The translations under genes were made by a program, and so were the position numbers. Under the pieces are notes generated by a model. The model had not been told where the DNA came from. It saw only the letters and a list, made by a program, of their open reading frames with translations, and ran no database searches. From NCBI GenBank assembly GCA_946629405.1, contig CAMOXW010000138.1, forward strand, positions 1-5,370: 5,370 nt of DNA, written 5' to 3'. The stretch comes from an uncultured Ruminococcus sp. (GTDB lineage Bacteria; Bacillota_A; Clostridia; Oscillospirales; Ruminococcaceae). Below are positions 1 through 5,370 of this stretch, one piece after another; position 1 is the stretch's first letter, and the number at the start of each line of letters is the position of its first letter.

Positions 1-352
1 AAGCTCTTTCCCAGTCATCAAATACTGAAGATCCGCATTCTGTAAACTCATCTTCAGCGATGTAATATGCTTCCTCATGCTCTGATTCAATAAGGCTTAG
101 CGCATATTCGCAGGACTGGATATATTGTTCAGTAAATTTCCGAAAATTCTCACTATCCCACTCGTAATCTCCGACAGCAAGCTCCTCATCGGTGTATTTA
201 TCAAGCCGCTCACGAATAGCTGCTATCTTATCCCTTAACGGACGGCAGGTAGATCTTGAAATGAGAATACACTCAACTGCAGGTGGAAGCACCTTGTCTT
301 TGAGCATAAAACTCAGTGTTTCAGAATCTATGAATGATGTTACATTTTCCAT
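1..352 (-). CDS. Unrecognised acidic protein, 3' end outside the window
   Basis: Reading leftward from the ATG at 352-350, the frame stays open for 117 codons to the window edge, so the C-terminus is missing. The start is supported by an AAAGGAG Shine-Dalgarno about eight bases upstream (360-367). The visible protein begins MENVTSFIDSETLSF, has a short basic stretch around residues 33-48 (SRSTCRPLRDKIAAIRER) and then becomes rich in Asp and Glu (for example EHEEAYYIAEDEF near residues 90-102). I see no signal peptide, membrane segment or catalytic motif, and I do not recognise the family. It lies 23 bp behind the phosphatase gene on the same strand with only the ribosome binding site between them, so the two are almost certainly co-transcribed and share the regulated divergent promoter. 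Existence is well supported by start, frame and operon position; function is unknown. Confidence 0.8.
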   Translation of the reverse strand, partial: MENVTSFIDSETLSFMLKDKVLPPAVECILISRSTCRPLRDKIAAIRERLDKYTDEELAVGDYEWDSENFRKFTEQYIQSCEYALSLIESEHEEAYYIAEDEFTECGSSVFDDWERA

Positions 353-375
353 ATTTATTCTCCTTTATTTGCTTT

Positions 376-819
376 TTAATACTCTTTTTCCATATTCTCA
401 TAAACAACTTTCAGCAGGTAGTAAACATAATCATTGAACATTTTATCATCAGTCGGTGGCAATCCAAGCATCTCACGGGCGAATACGCCTACTGCTCTTG
501 AACGTGAAATACCGGCATAGCAATGGATAAGCAATGTATCAACATTCTGATGTTTCGTCAGGAAGTAAATAATGTCCAGTGCCTGTTTTTTCTGGAAAAG
601 AGTGTAACCGGACTCAGGCTCTTCAATATCGTCAAAATAAAGTGTGAGCACGCCCTTGCAGTATCTGTTTTCAGTAAGCTGAAATCCGAATCCGCCGCAC
701 CATGCGTCCTGAATCGAGATCGCTGCATAGGTTTCGGACCTATTAGGATTGTCGTTATGTCTCATAACGAAGCTGAGTGCTTCACGGGCAGAGGTAACTA
801 AAATTCTCGGTTTTTTCAT
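376..819 (-). CDS. Protein-tyrosine / dual-specificity phosphatase-like protein
   Basis: This 147-residue protein is a small cytoplasmic cysteine phosphatase. The P-loop signature is seen directly as HCYAGISRSR: H99, the nucleophile C100 and the phosphate-binding R106, followed by S107, which matches the HCxxGxxR(S/T) signature of the DSP/PTP superfamily. A preceding acidic segment, YFDDIEEPESG (D63/D64), is well placed to give the general acid. The length fits a minimal single-domain DSP; no signal peptide or membrane segment is present. The ATG at 819-817 follows AGAAGGAG at 834-827. The gene is first in a leftward operon and divergent from hen1, with which it shares a dyad operator. Family members dephosphorylate phospho-Tyr/Ser/Thr, and some act on RNA 5' phosphates or lipids. 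The substrate here is unknown. An RNA role is only suggested by the neighbour and the shared control region. Confidence 0.88.
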   Translation of the reverse strand: MKKPRILVTSAREALSFVMRHNDNPNRSETYAAISIQDAWCGGFGFQLTENRYCKGVLTLYFDDIEEPESGYTLFQKKQALDIIYFLTKHQNVDTLLIHCYAGISRSRAVGVFAREMLGLPPTDDKMFNDYVYYLLKVVYENMEKEY

Positions 820-832
820 TTTATCACTCCTT

Positions 833-849
833 CTGAAAACAGTATATCA
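833..849 (-). promoter_or_regulatory. Promoter of the leftward phosphatase operon
   Basis: On the minus strand an extended -10 element reads TG-A-TATACT (TG at 849-848, TATACT at 846-841). It is followed by GTTTTCAGAA, whose CAG (835-833) sits where a transcription start is expected, leaving a leader of about 15 bases. No -35 hexamer is found at 16-18 bp spacing. Instead the dyad at 857-874 ends exactly 10 bp upstream of the -10 box. The extended -10 string GTGATATACT is identical to that of the AAA+ operon promoter. Inferred from sequence only. Confidence 0.6.
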
Positions 850-856
850 CTTGTTA

Positions 857-874
857 TGTCCAAATTTTTTTACA
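857..874. promoter_or_regulatory. Shared dyad operator between the divergent operons
   Basis: The 18-bp sequence TGTCCAAATTTTTTTACA is an imperfect inverted repeat: its two half-sites, each read inward, are TGTCCAAAT and TGTAAAAAA. It lies exactly 10 bp from the rightward -10 box (885-890) and exactly 10 bp from the leftward -10 box (846-841), so one site serves both promoters symmetrically. A second copy stands at 2780-2797 with the same 10-bp spacing to its -10. The dyad occupies the place where -35 boxes would be. A dimeric activator is my preferred reading, a repressor the alternative. The regulator is not encoded in this window. Confidence 0.6.
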
Positions 875-884
875 CGGCTTGATG

Positions 885-901
885 TATGATATTTACAGAA
901 A
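885..901 (+). promoter_or_regulatory. Promoter of the hen1-pnkp operon
   Basis: TATGAT at 885-890 is the -10 candidate, in the same register as TATACT of the AAA+ operon. It is followed by ATTTACAGAAA (891-901), nearly the same as ATATACAGAAA downstream of the AAA+ promoter, which places the transcript start near 897-898 and leaves a leader of about 20 bases before the ATG. No -35 box is visible; the dyad at 857-874 occupies that region. From 856 to 901 the sequence aligns without gaps to 2779-2824 with about 31 of 46 identical positions. Confidence 0.55.
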
Positions 902-916
902 CGAAGGAGTGATATT

Positions 917-2260
917 ATGCTTATAACAATTACTTATGAAGGCACAAACACTCAGCAGCTTGGCTATCTGCTCCACAAGAATCCATACGCAGCGCAGGAG
1001 TTTTCGCTTACTTTCGGCAAAGCCTATGTATTCTATCCAGAGGTGTCTGACGAGCGTACAACTGCCGCTCTGCTCCTCGACATAAACTCTCTTGATCTTG
1101 CAAAGGGTAAGGAGAATTCTTCAAATACAGGACTTTTCGACTATGTGAATGACCGTCCCTATACATCTAATTCATTTATGAGCGTGGCGCTGAACCGCGT
1201 ATTCGGTACTGCTATGAAAGGCAGATGCGACAAGAATCAGGCACTTGCGGATACTCCGATTGACCTTACAGCAAATGTACACATGCTCCGCTGTGAGAAC
1301 GATGAACTGCCAAGGAGAATTTTTGAGCCGCTGGGATATATGGTAAAAATTGAACGCAGACTGCTTGATGAAAGATTTCCTGAGTGGGGCGAAAGTCCGT
1401 ACATTGACCTGACTATCAAAGGAACGGTTAAGCTCTCCGAGCTGCTCAATCACCTGTATGTGACAATTCCAGTTTTTGACGGAAACAAGCACTATTTTAT
1501 TGACGAGAACGAAATAGAGAAGCTGCTCAGTCACGGCGGTGAATGGTTGAAAACTCACCCTTACCGTAAAACTATAACCAAGGGATATTTCAACAATATC
1601 CGCAGTATTACGAAGTCCGCGCTTGGTATAATTTCCGATGATAATGATACTGAACAGCCGAAGCAGAAACGCCTTGACACAGAGCGCCTTGATACGATAA
1701 CACAGGCTGTTCTCGACAGCGGCGCAAAGAGCGTTCTTGACCTTGGCTGCGGTGAAGGTAAATATGTTGCACGACTGCTGAATGAGCCGCAGATAAGCCA
1801 TATAACTGCCGCTGATGTTTCGGTGAAAGCACTTGAATCTGCAAAGAACCGCATTGAAAAGCTGACACAGCGGCAGAAGGACAGAGTTGAGTTCATTCAG
1901 GCTTCTGCAATTTGCAGGGACCGGCGTTTTGATGGTCATGACTGCTGTTTGCTGATCGAAGTCATTGAGCACATTGACGAGGACAGGCTGTCTGTAATGG
2001 AGCGTGTGGTGTTTGAACTTACCAAACCGAAAACAGTTATCGTCACTACTCCGAATGCGGAGTACAATGCAAATTACGAGTTCCTGAACGAGGGTGAACT
2101 CCGCCACACCGATCACAGATTTGAGTGGAACAGGGAGAAATTCCGAGATTGGACTGAAAAAATATGCGAGAAATACGGTTACAAAGTCAGGATCACAGGC
2201 ATAGGGAACGAAAACGAGATTCACGGCGCACCGACGCAGATGGGAGTGTTTGAGTTATGA
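917..2260 (+). CDS. hen1: Hen1, 3'-terminal RNA ribose 2'-O-methyltransferase
   Basis: The 447-residue product has the full two-part layout of bacterial Hen1. An N-terminal Hen1-specific domain (about residues 1-240) includes LLDERFPEWGESPYIDLT (149-166), LNHLYVTIPVFD and HPYRKTITKGYF. It is joined by a polar linker to a class I methyltransferase domain (about 255-447). The AdoMet loop is VLDLGCGEGKY (273-283). The Mg/Mn-binding Hen1 signature is E348-V-I-E351-H352 with H400 in the RHTDHRFEW block; TTPNAEYN (377-384) follows the family pattern. No essential residue appears lost. The enzyme methylates the 2'-OH at the 3' end of cleaved RNA, so that after repair by Pnkp the same ribotoxin cannot cut again. 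The start is supported by GAAGGAG at 903-909. Its stop overlaps the pnkp start (ATGA), indicating translational coupling. Length is close to the usual roughly 460 residues. Confidence 0.95.
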   Translation: MLITITYEGTNTQQLGYLLHKNPYAAQEFSLTFGKAYVFYPEVSDERTTAALLLDINSLDLAKGKENSSNTGLFDYVNDRPYTSNSFMSVALNRVFGTAMKGRCDKNQALADTPIDLTANVHMLRCENDELPRRIFEPLGYMVKIERRLLDERFPEWGESPYIDLTIKGTVKLSELLNHLYVTIPVFDGNKHYFIDENEIEKLLSHGGEWLKTHPYRKTITKGYFNNIRSITKSALGIISDDNDTEQPKQKRLDTERLDTITQAVLDSGAKSVLDLGCGEGKYVARLLNEPQISHITAADVSVKALESAKNRIEKLTQRQKDRVEFIQASAICRDRRFDGHDCCLLIEVIEHIDEDRLSVMERVVFELTKPKTVIVTTPNAEYNANYEFLNEGELRHTDHRFEWNREKFRDWTEKICEKYGYKVRITGIGNENEIHGAPTQMGVFEL

Positions 2261-2748
2261 GAATTGAGATACCGCAGCTTTCTTTAGTAGCGCTTGTAGG
2301 AGCGTCCGCAAGTGGAAAATCCACATTTGCACACAAGTATTTTAAGCCTACAGAGGTGCTTTCCTCCGACTTTTTCAGAGGAATTGTAGGCGATGATGAG
2401 GCTGACCAGTCCGTGACCGACAGCGCTTTCGACCTGCTTTTCAAGGCGGCTGAGATTCGCCTTGCGCTGGGCAGATTAACTGTCATTGACGCTACAAATA
2501 TACAGAAGAATTCCCACAAAAGTATTCTCGATCTTGCTAAACGTCAGAACGTCCACTCTGCTGCTATCGTTCTCGATACTTCACTGAAAACTCTACTTGA
2601 GCGCAATGCTAATCTTGCACTGAAAGAGTTTGCGCTGGGCGTTGAAGCACTGAGCAGATTTGTGAAAAAAGAGCCGCTCTACCGCGTGTATCAGTGTGCA
2701 TTTGGCGTACTGGCTATGGAGAGTGAGCCGACCGATCCGAGATTATAA
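2257..2748 (+). CDS. pnkp: Internally deleted Pnkp: partial kinase fused to the ligase C-terminus
   Basis: Bacterial Pnkp is normally about 850 residues with kinase, 2',3'-phosphatase and ligase domains. This product has 163. Residues 1-119 match the N-terminal kinase: a P-loop GASASGKST (15-23, K21/S22), SSDFFRG with D38 and R41, VIDATN (76-81), and LLERN (113-117, R116). From about residue 120 the sequence (ALKEFALGVEALSRFV, then a terminus ending ESEPTDPRL) no longer resembles the kinase lid but closely resembles my memory of the extreme C-terminus of full-length Pnkp. The reading frame and natural-looking stop are kept, so the parsimonious explanation is an in-frame loss of roughly 2.1 kb. 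The phosphatase, the ligase nucleotidyltransferase core and the distal kinase lid are absent, so end-healing and sealing as in CthPnkp cannot be expected. Translation is coupled to hen1 by the 4-bp overlap. Kinase origin is certain; the fusion call rests on remembered family sequence. Confidence 0.85.
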   Translation: MRIEIPQLSLVALVGASASGKSTFAHKYFKPTEVLSSDFFRGIVGDDEADQSVTDSAFDLLFKAAEIRLALGRLTVIDATNIQKNSHKSILDLAKRQNVHSAAIVLDTSLKTLLERNANLALKEFALGVEALSRFVKKEPLYRVYQCAFGVLAMESEPTDPRL

Positions 2749-2750
2749 GA

Positions 2751-2780
2751 ATTGCCGCACTCAGGTGCGGCAATCTTTAT
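2751..2780 (+). terminator. Hairpin terminator after pnkp
   Basis: ATTGCCGCAC (2751-2760) pairs perfectly with GTGCGGCAAT (2765-2774) around a four-base TCAG loop, starting two bases after the pnkp stop. The tail CTTTAT is a short, imperfect T tract, so termination may be partial. The tail touches the operator of the next operon at 2780, packing the end of one unit directly against the control region of the next. Confidence 0.75.
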
Positions 2781-2797
2781 GTCCAGTATTTTGAACA
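2780..2797. promoter_or_regulatory. Second dyad operator, upstream of the AAA+ operon
   Basis: TGTCCAGTATTTTGAACA is an inverted repeat of the form TGTnCA-N6-TGnACA. Its half-sites, read inward, are TGTCCAGTA and TGTTCAAAA, matching those at 857-874. The distance to the -10 box (2808-2813) is exactly 10 bp, as at the other two promoters. This is the most symmetric copy and the best seed for a genome-wide motif search. Confidence 0.6.
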
Positions 2798-2804
2798 TCG
2801 GGTG

Positions 2805-2824
2805 TGATATACTATATACAGAAA
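2805..2824 (+). promoter_or_regulatory. Promoter of the AAA+ operon
   Basis: An extended -10 box TG-A-TATACT is seen at 2805-2813, then ATATACAGAAA. A start at about 2820-2821 leaves a leader of about 16 bases before the ATG at 2837. No -35 hexamer lies at standard spacing; the dyad at 2780-2797 is there instead. The string GTGATATACT is shared exactly with the leftward promoter near 841-850. Confidence 0.62.
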
Positions 2825-2831
2825 GAGGTGA
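2824..2831 (+). promoter_or_regulatory. Ribosome binding site fixing the AAA+ gene start
   Basis: AGAGGTGA lies 5 bases before the ATG at 2837. An in-frame GTG at 2804 would extend the protein by 11 residues, but it lies inside the extended -10 element and upstream of the likely transcript start, and has no ribosome binding site. The ATG at 2837 is therefore chosen. Confidence 0.75.
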
Positions 2832-2836
2832 ACAGT

Positions 2837-4813
2837 ATGAGATATTTTGAGTGTAAAGTTAAGCTGACAAACGAGATCCAGCCCCGTACCGATGAAGGTT
2901 CAGCTGTATGCGATGAGATTGCAAGAAAGTGCGATGAATACTGCGACATGAATAAGGACAGCTTCTGCGGCTGCGTGACTTATCTCAAGGGCAGAGAGTG
3001 TGTGTTCTACATGAGCGGAAATGGCAGCAATGCAGTATTTGAAGCCGAGATAAAGAATTTCTGGAAGATGCTCAAACTTAAAGGCAAGATAGAAAAAATA
3101 GCTGAAATGCCTGTGGATAAGGTTAATAAGGCACTCAGGAACAGCCGTCATGTTGACACACCTGATGATATTGAGGAGCTTATGAAAGTATCGGCTTTCA
3201 GATATACTGACATTGACGAGCATATTGTTACAACAGATGGCAAGCCTGAACTCTCGGATTATGCAGATTTTATAAGAATGCCTGAACTGAAAGCAGAGGC
3301 TGAACGTATTGAAGCCTGCAATAATACTGAATTCATTGGTCACCCTGTTCACTATCTGATCGAAGGAAATAGCGTTGATAAGATCAAAAAGACCGTTGAT
3401 GTACTTGTGAGCAGTCTTATGAAGTCTAACAGACTTGAATCCGGCAGAGTGAGCTATATTGACGAGAGAAGAGTTGCAAACAGTCGTGGAAACCTTATTG
3501 AGAATATATATGAAAATATCGGCGGCGGTACTGTGCTTGTTGGCATAAACACTGTCCGCGGCGAGAATGAATATGCAGATACTACTGATGCGATGATAGA
3601 AGAAGTGTGCAAACACGCTCTGAAACACCGCAATGATATACTGACCATTTTTAACATAACACGGCACGATGTTAAGGCTGAAAATGCAATTGCATCTTAT
3701 CTTAAAGATGAACTCAGACTTATCCAGCTGAGAGAAGCTGCCATAGGATTTACCGAGTGCATTTCCTATCTCGGTGAACTTGCTGCTGCAAAGGATATAC
3801 ACAATACAGGCGAACTTGAAAAGAAACTTGATCCCGATACAGAGACTTATTACATAAGCGAACTTGACAATATTTTTAATGAATATTACAACGAACATAT
3901 CAGGAACACAGCGTTTCCTGCTTATGCCGACTGCTCAGTATTCAAGGCTAAGGAGAGTAAGATAGAGGGCAAGGCTGCTGATGAACTGGCTGAGATGATA
4001 GGACTTGACAGCGTAAAAGACGTGATAAACCGCTCTGTGAACTTTTTCAAGCTTCAGCAGGCTTACAGGGACAGGAATATCGTTATGGATAATCCTGCAA
4101 GAAGTATGATATTTACAGGTAATCCCGGTACTGCAAAGACAACTGTTGCAAGGTTAACTGCTAAAATTTTTCGTGACAACGGTCTGCTTGAAAATGGCAG
4201 GCTCGTTGAAGTTGGACGCGCCGATCTTGTTGGAAAGTTTGTTGGCTGGACTGCACCTACGATAAAGGCTGCATTCCGCAGGGCTAAGGGCTCTATCCTG
4301 TTCATTGACGAGGCGTACTCCCTTGTTGACGACAGGAATGGCAGCTTCGGTGACGAGGCTATAAATACGATCGTACAGGAAATGGAGAACCACCGCGATG
4401 ATACTATCGTTATCTTCGCAGGTTACCCAGATAAAATGGAAGGATTCCTTGCCAAGAATCCCGGCCTGAGAAGCCGTATAGCGTTCCACGTTGACTTCCC
4501 TGACTATAAAGAAAATGAGCTGCTGGATATCCTGCGGCTCATGGTGAAGAACAAGAATATGAAGCTTGCCGGAGATGCCGAGGACAAGGCTCATGAGATC
4601 TTCCGGGAGGCTGTGAAGCTGCATGATTTCGGCAACGGACGTTTCGTCCGCAACCTCCTTGAAAGCGCCATTATGGGTATGTCTCAGCGGCTTGCAGGGC
4701 AGGATCTGAATAATCTGAGCGATGAGATGCTCGTTACGCTTACTGCCGATGATTTTACTATGCCGAAGCTGACTACCCAAAAGGACGATAACAGGCGTAA
4801 AATAGGATTTTAG
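2837..4813 (+). CDS. CbxX/CfxQ (SpoVK-like) AAA+ ATPase with a long N-terminal extension
   Basis: The product has 658 residues counted from the ATG at 2837. The C-terminal third (about 378-645) is a complete CbxX/CfxQ-type AAA+ module: ELAEMIGLDSVKDVI leader, Walker A GNPGTAKTT (428-436, K434), pore-loop region around GKFVGW, Walker B ILFIDEAYSL (D491/E492), sensor-1-like IVIFAGYP, arginine finger in NPGLRSRI (R545/R547) and sensor 2 in GNGRFVRN (602-605 region). All catalytic elements look intact. The N-terminal 370 residues are not a standard domain I can name. Residues about 180-320, with NLIENIYENIGGGTVLVGIN, resemble a degenerate AAA fold lacking a Walker A, as seen in multi-domain relatives. 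No membrane segments. Members are hexameric remodelling ATPases; the SpoVK name is by homology and does not imply a sporulation role. It is the first gene of a two-gene operon under the same promoter type as hen1-pnkp. Confidence 0.9.
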   Translation: MRYFECKVKLTNEIQPRTDEGSAVCDEIARKCDEYCDMNKDSFCGCVTYLKGRECVFYMSGNGSNAVFEAEIKNFWKMLKLKGKIEKIAEMPVDKVNKALRNSRHVDTPDDIEELMKVSAFRYTDIDEHIVTTDGKPELSDYADFIRMPELKAEAERIEACNNTEFIGHPVHYLIEGNSVDKIKKTVDVLVSSLMKSNRLESGRVSYIDERRVANSRGNLIENIYENIGGGTVLVGINTVRGENEYADTTDAMIEEVCKHALKHRNDILTIFNITRHDVKAENAIASYLKDELRLIQLREAAIGFTECISYLGELAAAKDIHNTGELEKKLDPDTETYYISELDNIFNEYYNEHIRNTAFPAYADCSVFKAKESKIEGKAADELAEMIGLDSVKDVINRSVNFFKLQQAYRDRNIVMDNPARSMIFTGNPGTAKTTVARLTAKIFRDNGLLENGRLVEVGRADLVGKFVGWTAPTIKAAFRRAKGSILFIDEAYSLVDDRNGSFGDEAINTIVQEMENHRDDTIVIFAGYPDKMEGFLAKNPGLRSRIAFHVDFPDYKENELLDILRLMVKNKNMKLAGDAEDKAHEIFREAVKLHDFGNGRFVRNLLESAIMGMSQRLAGQDLNNLSDEMLVTLTADDFTMPKLTTQKDDNRRKIGF

Positions 4814-4818
4814 GAGGT
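4812..4818 (+). promoter_or_regulatory. Strong ribosome binding site of the last gene
   Basis: AGGAGGT overlaps the TAG stop of the AAA+ gene (TAGGAGGT) and stands four bases before the ATG at 4823. It identifies that ATG, rather than the TTG at 4869 of the long downstream frame, as the real start, and shows tight coupling to the AAA+ gene. Confidence 0.85.
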
Positions 4819-4822
4819 CAAT

Positions 4823-5297
4823 ATGAACGTAACGGAGCTTATTATCGGTGCCGGACTTACTCCCCTGATTGAGGAGAGCTGGCGCCGTTACAAAAAAAAA
4901 CGAAACTGCGGAGATCACCCCTGATTTCCGCAGTGGTGTCGTCCGGCTGCTGTCTGTGATAAGGGACATCGAGCCTGTGAAGACAGGCTGGACTATCGCC
5001 GCCAAAACCTATGAGCCGGACGGGCTTGATGTGTTTGTGCTCGACAACGAGGGGCAGGATTACAGCCTGCTCTTTGTAAAATGGGCGGAGGTGCTTGGCT
5101 ATGAAGTGCCGGAGGAGCTTGCTGAGAATATCGGGCAGGCTCGTCTTGCCGCCGCTATACTCTACGGAATGACGTGGTTCGCCGTGAGCAGCGAGGAAAA
5201 TGACAAGGCAGCAGAGCAGTTCGCAGAGGACTGCAAGGACGTTGACGAGCCCACTTACAGCAGCTTTTCTGAGATGCAGGAAGATATCGGGGAATAA
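4823..5297 (+). CDS. Small acidic protein, DUF6557-like, frame broken at A9
   Basis: From the ATG at 4823, with an excellent Shine-Dalgarno, the frame reads 33 codons (MNVTELIIGAGLTPLIEESW then RRYKKK...) to a TGA at 4922-4924. The rest of the protein lies in the +1 frame and runs to TAA at 5295-5297. Removing one A from the nine-A run at 4892-4900 joins both parts into a sensible 157-residue protein (...WRRYKKNETAEITPDFRSG...). The downstream part has acidic, soluble character with YSLLFVKWAEVLGYEV, ILYGMTWFAVSSEEN and an acidic tail. That pattern of FxxWxExLGxEV followed by LxxMTxFxxSxEE resembles a small family I recall as DUF6557, of unknown function; this assignment is tentative. It is the second gene of the AAA+ operon, so it may be a partner or substrate adaptor of the ATPase. 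The break may be a sequencing indel, a mutation, or a recoding or phase-variable site. Confidence 0.72.
4892..4900 (+). repeat. Homopolymer A9 at the frame break
   Basis: Nine consecutive A sit exactly where the reading frame of the last gene changes. Eight A (or eleven) would restore one open frame. Runs of this length are known to promote both polymerase slippage on RNA and replication slippage, and are also a common place for sequencing indels. Confidence 0.9.
4905..4934 (+). other. 12-bp stem-loop just behind the A9 run
   Basis: ACTGCGGAGATC (4905-4916) pairs with GATTTCCGCAGT (4923-4934) around the loop ACCCCT, giving 11 Watson-Crick pairs and one G-U. It starts four bases after the A9 run. 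In the plus-strand transcript this is a slippery run followed by a structure; on the minus strand the order is hairpin, TTCG, then nine T, which resembles a leftward intrinsic terminator with a displaced T tract. Either, both or neither may be functional, since the sequence is also coding. Confidence 0.6.
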
Positions 5298-5301
5298 AGA
5301 A

Positions 5302-5324
5302 CTCCCGCCGTTTGTGGGCGTGAG
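5302..5324 (+). other. Weak hairpin after the last gene
   Basis: CTCCCGCC (5302-5309) pairs with GGCGTGAG (5317-5324) with one internal mismatch and a seven-base loop, five bases after the stop codon. No T tract follows, so it may be a transcript-end or stability structure but is a poor intrinsic terminator. The remaining bases to 5370 show only an isolated TATAAT (5346-5351) without a matching -35 box or the dyad. Confidence 0.35.
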
Positions 5325-5370
5325 ATGATAGTTATCCGGTATATTTATAATGTTCCGAGCCGTCCGCCCC

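Follow-up and report, generated by a model that had tools for sequence, protein, structure and literature searches.

Promoters and genes at the hen1-pnkp locus

We analysed a 5,370-nucleotide stretch of DNA from an uncultured Ruminococcus sp. (GenBank assembly GCA_946629405.1, contig CAMOXW010000138.1, positions 1 to 5,370; hereinafter designated the window), which carries the RNA-repair genes hen1 and pnkp between a divergently oriented phosphatase-like gene and an AAA+ gene. The product of hen1 (917–2260, plus strand) is a 3′-terminal RNA ribose 2′-O-methyltransferase (TIGR04074, E 3.8e-180; Hen1_L, E 8.2e-94). The overlapping pnkp (2257–2748, plus strand) carries a large internal in-frame deletion that joins the kinase start to the end of the ligase domain, leaving 163 amino acids (aa) against 845 aa in the closest locus, L001, which belongs to a Ruminococcus flavefaciens metagenome-assembled genome and encodes a 93% identical Hen1. 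The phosphatase-like gene (376–819, minus strand) encodes a 147-aa protein with an HCxxGxxR loop (HCYAGISR), which we take as a protein-phosphatase-like signature; its DSPc match (E 0.004) lies under the Pfam cut-off. The AAA+ protein (2837–4813, plus strand) is SpoVK/CbbX-like, with AAA and AAA_lid_6 matches and a TIGR02881 match (E 1.9e-76) below cut-off.

All three units share one promoter design. An earlier note on this DNA had described two imperfect dyads, and the sequence read-out finds both at the claimed positions: dyad 1 reads TGTCCAAATTTTTTTACA (857–874) and is a putative operator common to two divergent promoters, and dyad 2 reads TGTCCAGTATTTTGAACA (2780–2797) and is the putative operator of the AAA+ operon. 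As also claimed, three −10 boxes each lie exactly 10 bp from a dyad end, namely TATACT for the phosphatase-like gene (846–841, minus strand), TATGAT for hen1 (885–890, plus strand) and TATACT for the AAA+ gene (2808–2813, plus strand). Both TATACT boxes are preceded by TGA (at 2805–2807 for the AAA+ promoter), forming an extended −10 element, and TG stands directly before TATGAT in the hen1 promoter, which partly accounts for the missing −35 box. A terminator-like hairpin behind the hen1-pnkp unit (2751–2774, plus strand) ends just before dyad 2, so the AAA+ unit is probably separate from hen1-pnkp; two such hairpins were found in 700–2900, against a shuffle mean of 1.7.

The spacing is fixed beyond chance, as had been argued. 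A composite of a dyad with at most two mismatches, 10 bp and a TAnnnT box matching at least five of six positions of TATAAT occurs three times in the window against a shuffle mean of 0.014, and none of 1000 shuffles yields as many. Taken without the box, the loose dyad pattern gives seven matches, a number reached in 14 of 200 shuffles and thus not significant; the significance comes from the fixed spacing, the bare dyad being not rare. Over 46 bp, the two plus-strand promoters agree at 30 positions (about 31 had been counted) and the minus-strand promoter agrees with the AAA+ promoter at 31 (about 30 had been counted), with a weaker 26 against the hen1 promoter. The motif CAGAA follows the −10 box in all three window promoters, but it is not general, CAGA standing shortly behind the −10 box in 20 of the 50 promoters aligned from other genomes. 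The sites are not sigma-54 promoters: −24/−12-like sequences with at most three mismatches number 17 in the window, fewer than the 24.3 that shuffles average, and these promoters coincide with none of them. Likewise, the window contains no match with at most one mismatch to the Bacillota LexA (SOS) box GAAC-N4-GTTC.

Behind the phosphatase-like gene lies the start portion of a gene of unknown family (2–352, minus strand) without a Pfam match, whose complete copy in L001 encodes 291 aa; the two genes probably form one transcription unit. Downstream of the AAA+ gene, a DUF6557 protein with a Pfam match (4869–5297, plus strand) probably belongs to the AAA+ operon. Within 4823–5297, an ATG frame from 4823 differs from the long DUF6557 frame, with a run of nine A residues (4892–4900) between them; the long frame is also listed in L001, and the discrepancy would reflect either a decayed gene or slippage. 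Window positions 1–1200, including the divergent promoter, show no mismatch to L001, and dyad 1 is identical there. After the first 1200 bases the comparison gives 11–22 mismatches per 200 up to a junction near 2602–2610, then 3 in 2758. Compared with L001, about 2.0 kb of pnkp is absent, in frame, with a short stretch common to both sides of the junction. Window positions 1201–2748 may have arisen by recombination together with a deletion, or the assembly may be chimeric here.

A promoter rule and its gene island

The composite recurs in nine genomes. We collected 72 dyads with at most one mismatch to TG[TC]NCA-N6-TGN[AG]CA from eight contigs, chosen without a −10 criterion; 39 lie outside called open reading frames (ORFs) and 33 inside. 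The 39 have 78 sides, and 38 of these show a TATAAT-like box at spacing 10; no other spacing exceeds six, the count at 15. Fifty promoters, taken from nine genomes with the WYL gene and two further ones, were aligned, leaving out seven rows with two mismatches, eight without a called downstream gene and the window's own three; they follow the pattern A-TGYNCARAATTYTGNRCA-T, T at −17 (35/50), TGn (31/50, with TG directly before the −10 box in six more) and TATAAT. The dyad centre falls at about −31.5 if the −10 box is taken as −12 to −7. The dyad ends and TA...T were used for picking and are conserved by construction, unlike the central RAATTY, T at −22 and TG; positions −21 to −18 are variable. 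None of the 50 promoters matches a −35 element (TTGACA, 15–19-bp spacer) at more than three of six positions, where shuffles would give about 11 of 50. The half-sites are mainly TGT in genomes G001, G002 and G473 and mainly TGC in G150, G359, G327 and G270, while G413 has both and G192 the TGTGCA type.

That the dyad would be kept upstream of orthologues was largely borne out for the AAA+ operon, where it stands in register directly upstream in five of seven genomes (G001, G002, G270, G359 and G413). The two others are partial cases, with a site 509 bp before the called start in G150 and only a three-mismatch site in G192. The phosphatase-side site of G002 (Ruminococcus sp. RGIG6695) keeps its position, is identical at 38 of 60 positions and retains the minus-strand −10 box; its plus box is weaker (TAAGAT), its dyad has three mismatches, and an additional 141-aa reading frame separates it from hen1.

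At three more distant Ruminococcus-type hen1-pnkp loci (L003–L005) no such composite was found. There, the immediately preceding gene has a WCX match at each of the three loci, slightly below the Pfam cut-off at two of them, and the L005 gene also matches WYL. A conserved TTCC-N11-GGAA dyad lies 8 bp before an extended −10 element (TGT-TAT(T/C)AT) ahead of hen1-pnkp (L003, 532–606; L004, 1423–1497; L005, 7926–8000). These sequences make it plausible that RNA repair at the three loci has a WYL-type control of a second kind.

Genome-wide searches with at most one mismatch, controlled by the reversed pattern, place the composite in a gene island. In G001, the genome of L001, seven of eight matches lie on one 24.8-kb contig (binomial 7e-14), and in G002, 11 of 18 lie within about 33 kb of one contig (binomial 6e-18). 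Outside the island contig there are one match in G001 and seven in G002; the reversed pattern yields three and five. Across 125 genomes of the genus, an exact match occurs in 20, as a single one in 17, and more than one is found only in G001, G002 and G473. The islands of G001 and G002 hold hen1-pnkp, AAA+ and phosphatase-like genes, an AddA-type helicase-nuclease, a MoxR ATPase, and an alpha/beta hydrolase gene with genes for a WYL transcription factor and a NADAR protein (DarT1-associated type) behind it. AddB, the partner of AddA, was called in G001 only of the two; behind MoxR, G001 encodes a DUF2201 metallopeptidase-like protein, as does G002 judging from the reading frame; and a YpsA-type SLOG protein was called in the G001 island. 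For most of these genes, the G001 copy was the one scanned against Pfam.

The site, its geometry and its restriction to the island are shown directly by these genomes. The putative regulon goes beyond the three units described earlier, being an island with more than three. The symmetric site implies a dimer, and the comparative evidence favours one dimeric regulator with a local regulon.

Two further features of the islands were observed. In L101, two relatives of the phosphatase-like protein (10828–11307 and 17840–18262) are devoid of HCxxGxxR, one having no HC and the other ending at HCFEEFQGLR; they are perhaps binding-only or decayed paralogues. Recombinase-, integrase- and mobilisation-like frames, recognized by eye in translations, lie near the G002 and G413 islands (L103, 38–1666; L130, 1–6000), which suggests island transfer by integrative elements.

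A WYL protein as candidate regulator

The WYL protein of G001 (P0001, 517 aa) follows the distribution of the sites. A search with P0001 of 396 family genomes finds it in nine at E ≤1e-30; at least two sites, by a broader composite pattern, occur in six of these nine and in none of the 387 WYL-negative genomes (Fisher 1.6e-11). Within the genus, 6 of 125 genomes have a WYL match, full length in G001, G002, G473 and G040 and as a shorter paralogue in G047 and G068. The dyad search alone led to G473, whose WYL gene adjoins its site. In a nine-genome comparison the WYL family is the sole gene family found in all nine, a count that is partly by construction, six of the nine having entered via the WYL search and only fetched stretches being compared; next come AAA+ proteins and AddA/UvrD-type helicases (seven each), then Pnkp, NADAR, AddB and a leucine-rich protein (six each). 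In eight of nine genomes, all but G150, a site stands ahead of the WYL gene or of the apparent operon to which that gene belongs.

G040 provides an independent view of the same geometry. Its WYL protein is full length and NADAR-fused, 53% identical to P0001 over the shared part and 91% identical to another NADAR fusion, P0010. Its island holds AAA+, SLOG, phosphatase-like, hydrolase and addA genes; hen1-pnkp was not found in the 39 kb read, nor was any in-register TGYNCA composite with at most two mismatches. Should the WYL protein be the regulator, with the geometry set by its contact with polymerase, a different dyad is expected at the same place. Palindromy of the 20-mer preceding each of 49 intergenic −10-like boxes across 25 kb of the island indeed peaks at six exactly at the expected offset, with at most two at each of the other 44 offsets. 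Five of the six peak sites have ATGTCTT-N6-AAGACAT-like arms, and the sites with these arms stand before a divergent pair (one side facing the AAA+ gene), before two more genes and before the hydrolase-WYL operon. The exact GTCTT-N6-AAGAC followed by a box occurs four times in G040, always on the island contig. This outcome, which could have failed, is in our view the strongest single result for a WYL regulator, and the evidence as a whole strongly suggests that the WYL factor acts on the dyads.

P0001 contains a WYL domain (E 2e-7) and a WCX match (E 2.1e-4) that, at 22.0 bits, falls just below the 23.9 cut-off. The predicted structure (mean predicted local distance difference test score, pLDDT, 81) comprises a winged helix, a helical linker (helices at 82–152 between the winged helix-turn-helix (wHTH) domain and WYL), WYL, WCX and C-terminal leucine-rich repeats. 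Foldseek ranks DriD first (E 1.2e-9), followed by PafBC (2e-9), a CRISPR-associated WYL-type protein (1e-6) and BrxR/CapW (9e-5 to 1.4e-3); only this ranking was used, given the poor whole superposition on DriD. Two arginines of an LRVDRL motif in P0001 are presumed to be WYL groove residues.

The leucine-rich repeats occupy residues 340–512 of P0001 and are perhaps a protein sensor. Other WYL regulators of this group carry instead a C-terminal NADAR domain of the DarT1-associated type (P0006, P0008, P0010, P0012, P0014, P0015 and the G040 protein, C36 39788–42061, L155/L156), which we take to be of the kind acting on ADP-ribosylated guanine.

Mode of action, rival readings and biological meaning

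We consider it likely that a dimer of the island WYL factor replaces −35 contacts and drives a regulon that includes RNA repair. In this mechanism, the dimeric factor encoded in the island (P0001 in G001) would bind the dyads as operators, sit over the −35 region and contact RNA polymerase; together with the extended −10 element, it would fire promoters that have no −35 box, as DriD does in Caulobacter. The geometry is symmetric, which allows a single palindrome to be used by two divergent promoters. The factor would control its own operon as well as the Hen1-Pnkp RNA-repair, NADAR, AAA+, phosphatase-like and SLOG proteins, thereby mounting a LexA-independent response to nucleic-acid damage or conflict; the trigger would probably be single-stranded nucleic acid in the WYL domain.

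DriD of Caulobacter crescentus offers the closest precedent. It is described as a homodimeric activator of the WYL type that senses single-stranded DNA (ssDNA), and its sites at five promoters as pseudo-palindromes over the −35 region at one distance from the −10 box, with a poor −35 element and a conserved G at −14 (PMC12340889). According to the same report, it contacts polymerase through its linker bundle, a mechanism suggested to be common to homodimeric WYL activators. P0001 shares with DriD, its top structural match, the wHTH, helical linker and WYL fold, and the island promoters fit each sequence feature given there: a pseudo-palindromic site of about 20 bp over −35, a constant −10 distance, a poor −35 element and the conserved G at −14. 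Since these features are present, activation is favoured, as the earlier note had leaned towards, with repression as the main rival. The two systems differ in that the island regulon includes RNA repair and NADAR whereas that reported for DriD comprises didA, bapE, recJ and dnaG, in the extra leucine-rich repeats or fused NADAR domain of the island protein, in operator sequence and in the use of one site for divergent pairs.

Two mycobacterial factors are related in other ways, and ssDNA binding is reported for both as well as for DriD (PMC11804915, PMC10693628, PMC12340889). PafBC, also a close structural match, is a WYL activator through which the housekeeping holoenzyme uses promoters without the usual −35 contact; unlike the island factor, it is described as a heterodimer, one half of which binds a −26 motif, with a DNA-damage regulon (PMC11804915). 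The island sites are palindromic, and as their right arm spans −28 to −23 a −26-type contact is possible. SiwR of Mycobacterium smegmatis is a homodimeric WYL activator with a 19-bp imperfect palindrome between −35 and −10, but it is described as serving one adjacent operon of DinB/YfiT-like genes (PMC10693628). Outside the WYL family, RtcR is likewise a dedicated regulator of an RNA-repair operon, with a CARF sensor and sigma-54 promoters as reported (PMC4012209), of which there are none at the sites of the window.

Several observations weigh against a WYL activator acting on these dyads. The hen1 site, which had been expected to be conserved, lies directly upstream in only two of four genomes, one of them G001, the window's own species. 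No site stands before the WYL gene of G150, and three of the nine WYL-positive family genomes have fewer than two exact sites: one exact site and three with a single mismatch occur in G359, while G236 and G356, which encode a shorter WYL paralogue, have no in-register site with at most one mismatch, with one two-mismatch site in G356. Two of the 50 promoters come from G376 and G469, genomes with only distant WYL relatives (24–26% identical), and at dyads inside ORFs a −10-like box stands at spacing 10 on 4 of 66 sides. For the protein, the predicted TM score (pTM) of the model is 0.47, its superposition on DriD is poor overall (TM 0.29 by query, root-mean-square deviation 12.6), and the LRVDRL arginines are changed in the G150, G359 and G327 proteins (IDKL), so that one common ligand is not assured. 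A repressor, too, could occupy a fixed position.

Repression by the same WYL protein is the strongest of the rival explanations, although we regard it as unlikely: the factor would bind the dyads in the manner of BrxR, extended −10 promoters would be on by default, and the dimer would obstruct polymerase until a ligand frees the site. Extended −10 boxes can indeed function without a −35 element, and CapW is a WYL repressor on inverted repeats that governs defence genes. BrxR is reported to be a WYL repressor of defence genes acting on inverted repeats, and differs from the island arrangement in its 11-bp repeats, 5-bp spacer and predicted −10 box upstream of the first repeat (PMC9122601). A survey of ADP-ribose conflict operons also takes WYL factors as negative regulators; its ARG-centred anti-ADP-ribosylation systems resemble the island in combining a WYL factor with phosphatase and vWA genes, sometimes with NADAR, and are described as using WYL or Nudix factors predicted to repress, whereas the promoter design here suggests activation (PMC9503650). 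The terms Hen1 and Pnkp are absent from that survey, and no ARG was found among the proteins scanned in our analysis. Against repression, the dominance of the 10-bp spacing (38 sides against at most six) and the lack of any −35-like sequence fit an activator in contact with polymerase better, the spacing is retained in G040 despite the changed operator, and the activators DriD and PafBC are the top folds, with BrxR and CapW ranked lower. Activation rather than repression is what we infer from these points; the proposed ligand and purpose are suggested by the ssDNA binding of PafBC, DriD and SiwR and by a cargo of RNA repair, ADP-ribose removal and DNA end processing.

It is quite improbable that another regulator, encoded in the island or outside it, binds the dyad and that the WYL gene is merely a target. 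Dyad binding by the WYL protein is deduced, any co-regulated gene would co-occur with the dyad, and some genomes whose only WYL relatives are distant have a single site; all three points would suit such a regulator. Within the fetched stretches, however, no other family reaches all nine genomes, the next ones stopping at seven, and G040, whose operator differs, retains the AAA+, SLOG, phosphatase-like and hydrolase genes and has a divergent, NADAR-fused WYL protein. A host-wide regulator should moreover leave sites outside the island, where few were found, one in G001 and seven in G002, against three and five for the control. That recent segment duplication or chance rather than regulation made the promoters alike is hardly credible, for although the plus promoters agree at 30 of 46 positions and some islands hold paralogous genes, shuffles never produce three composites, positions that were not picked (RAATTY, T at −22, TG) are conserved while −21 to −18 vary, and the register recurs with different half-sites and, in a tenth genome (G040), with another dyad.

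WYL activators of this mechanism class are known; what is new is the cargo, the architecture of the regulator with leucine-rich repeats or a NADAR fusion, and the natural operator change. In the literature searched, partly by titles and abstract openings, we came across no account of the control of Hen1-Pnkp RNA repair in bacteria and no paper joining WYL, Hen1 and Pnkp. What the work contributes for this repair system is a putative regulator together with a precisely defined operator and a rule for promoter layout. The DriD arrangement, reported for five promoters in Caulobacter, would seem to hold for many promoters of a second phylum as well, and the operator specificity that has changed naturally between islands could be used to examine DNA recognition by WYL factors.

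Tentatively, the islands may encode a LexA-independent response of their own, in which a WYL activator, NADAR-fused in some strains, would sense damaged or ADP-ribosylated nucleic acid and induce, as a single regulon, AAA+ machinery together with RNA repair, DNA end processing and the removal of ADP-ribose. If this holds, operator and regulator would change together between islands while the geometry stays fixed, so that co-resident islands would be insulated from each other.

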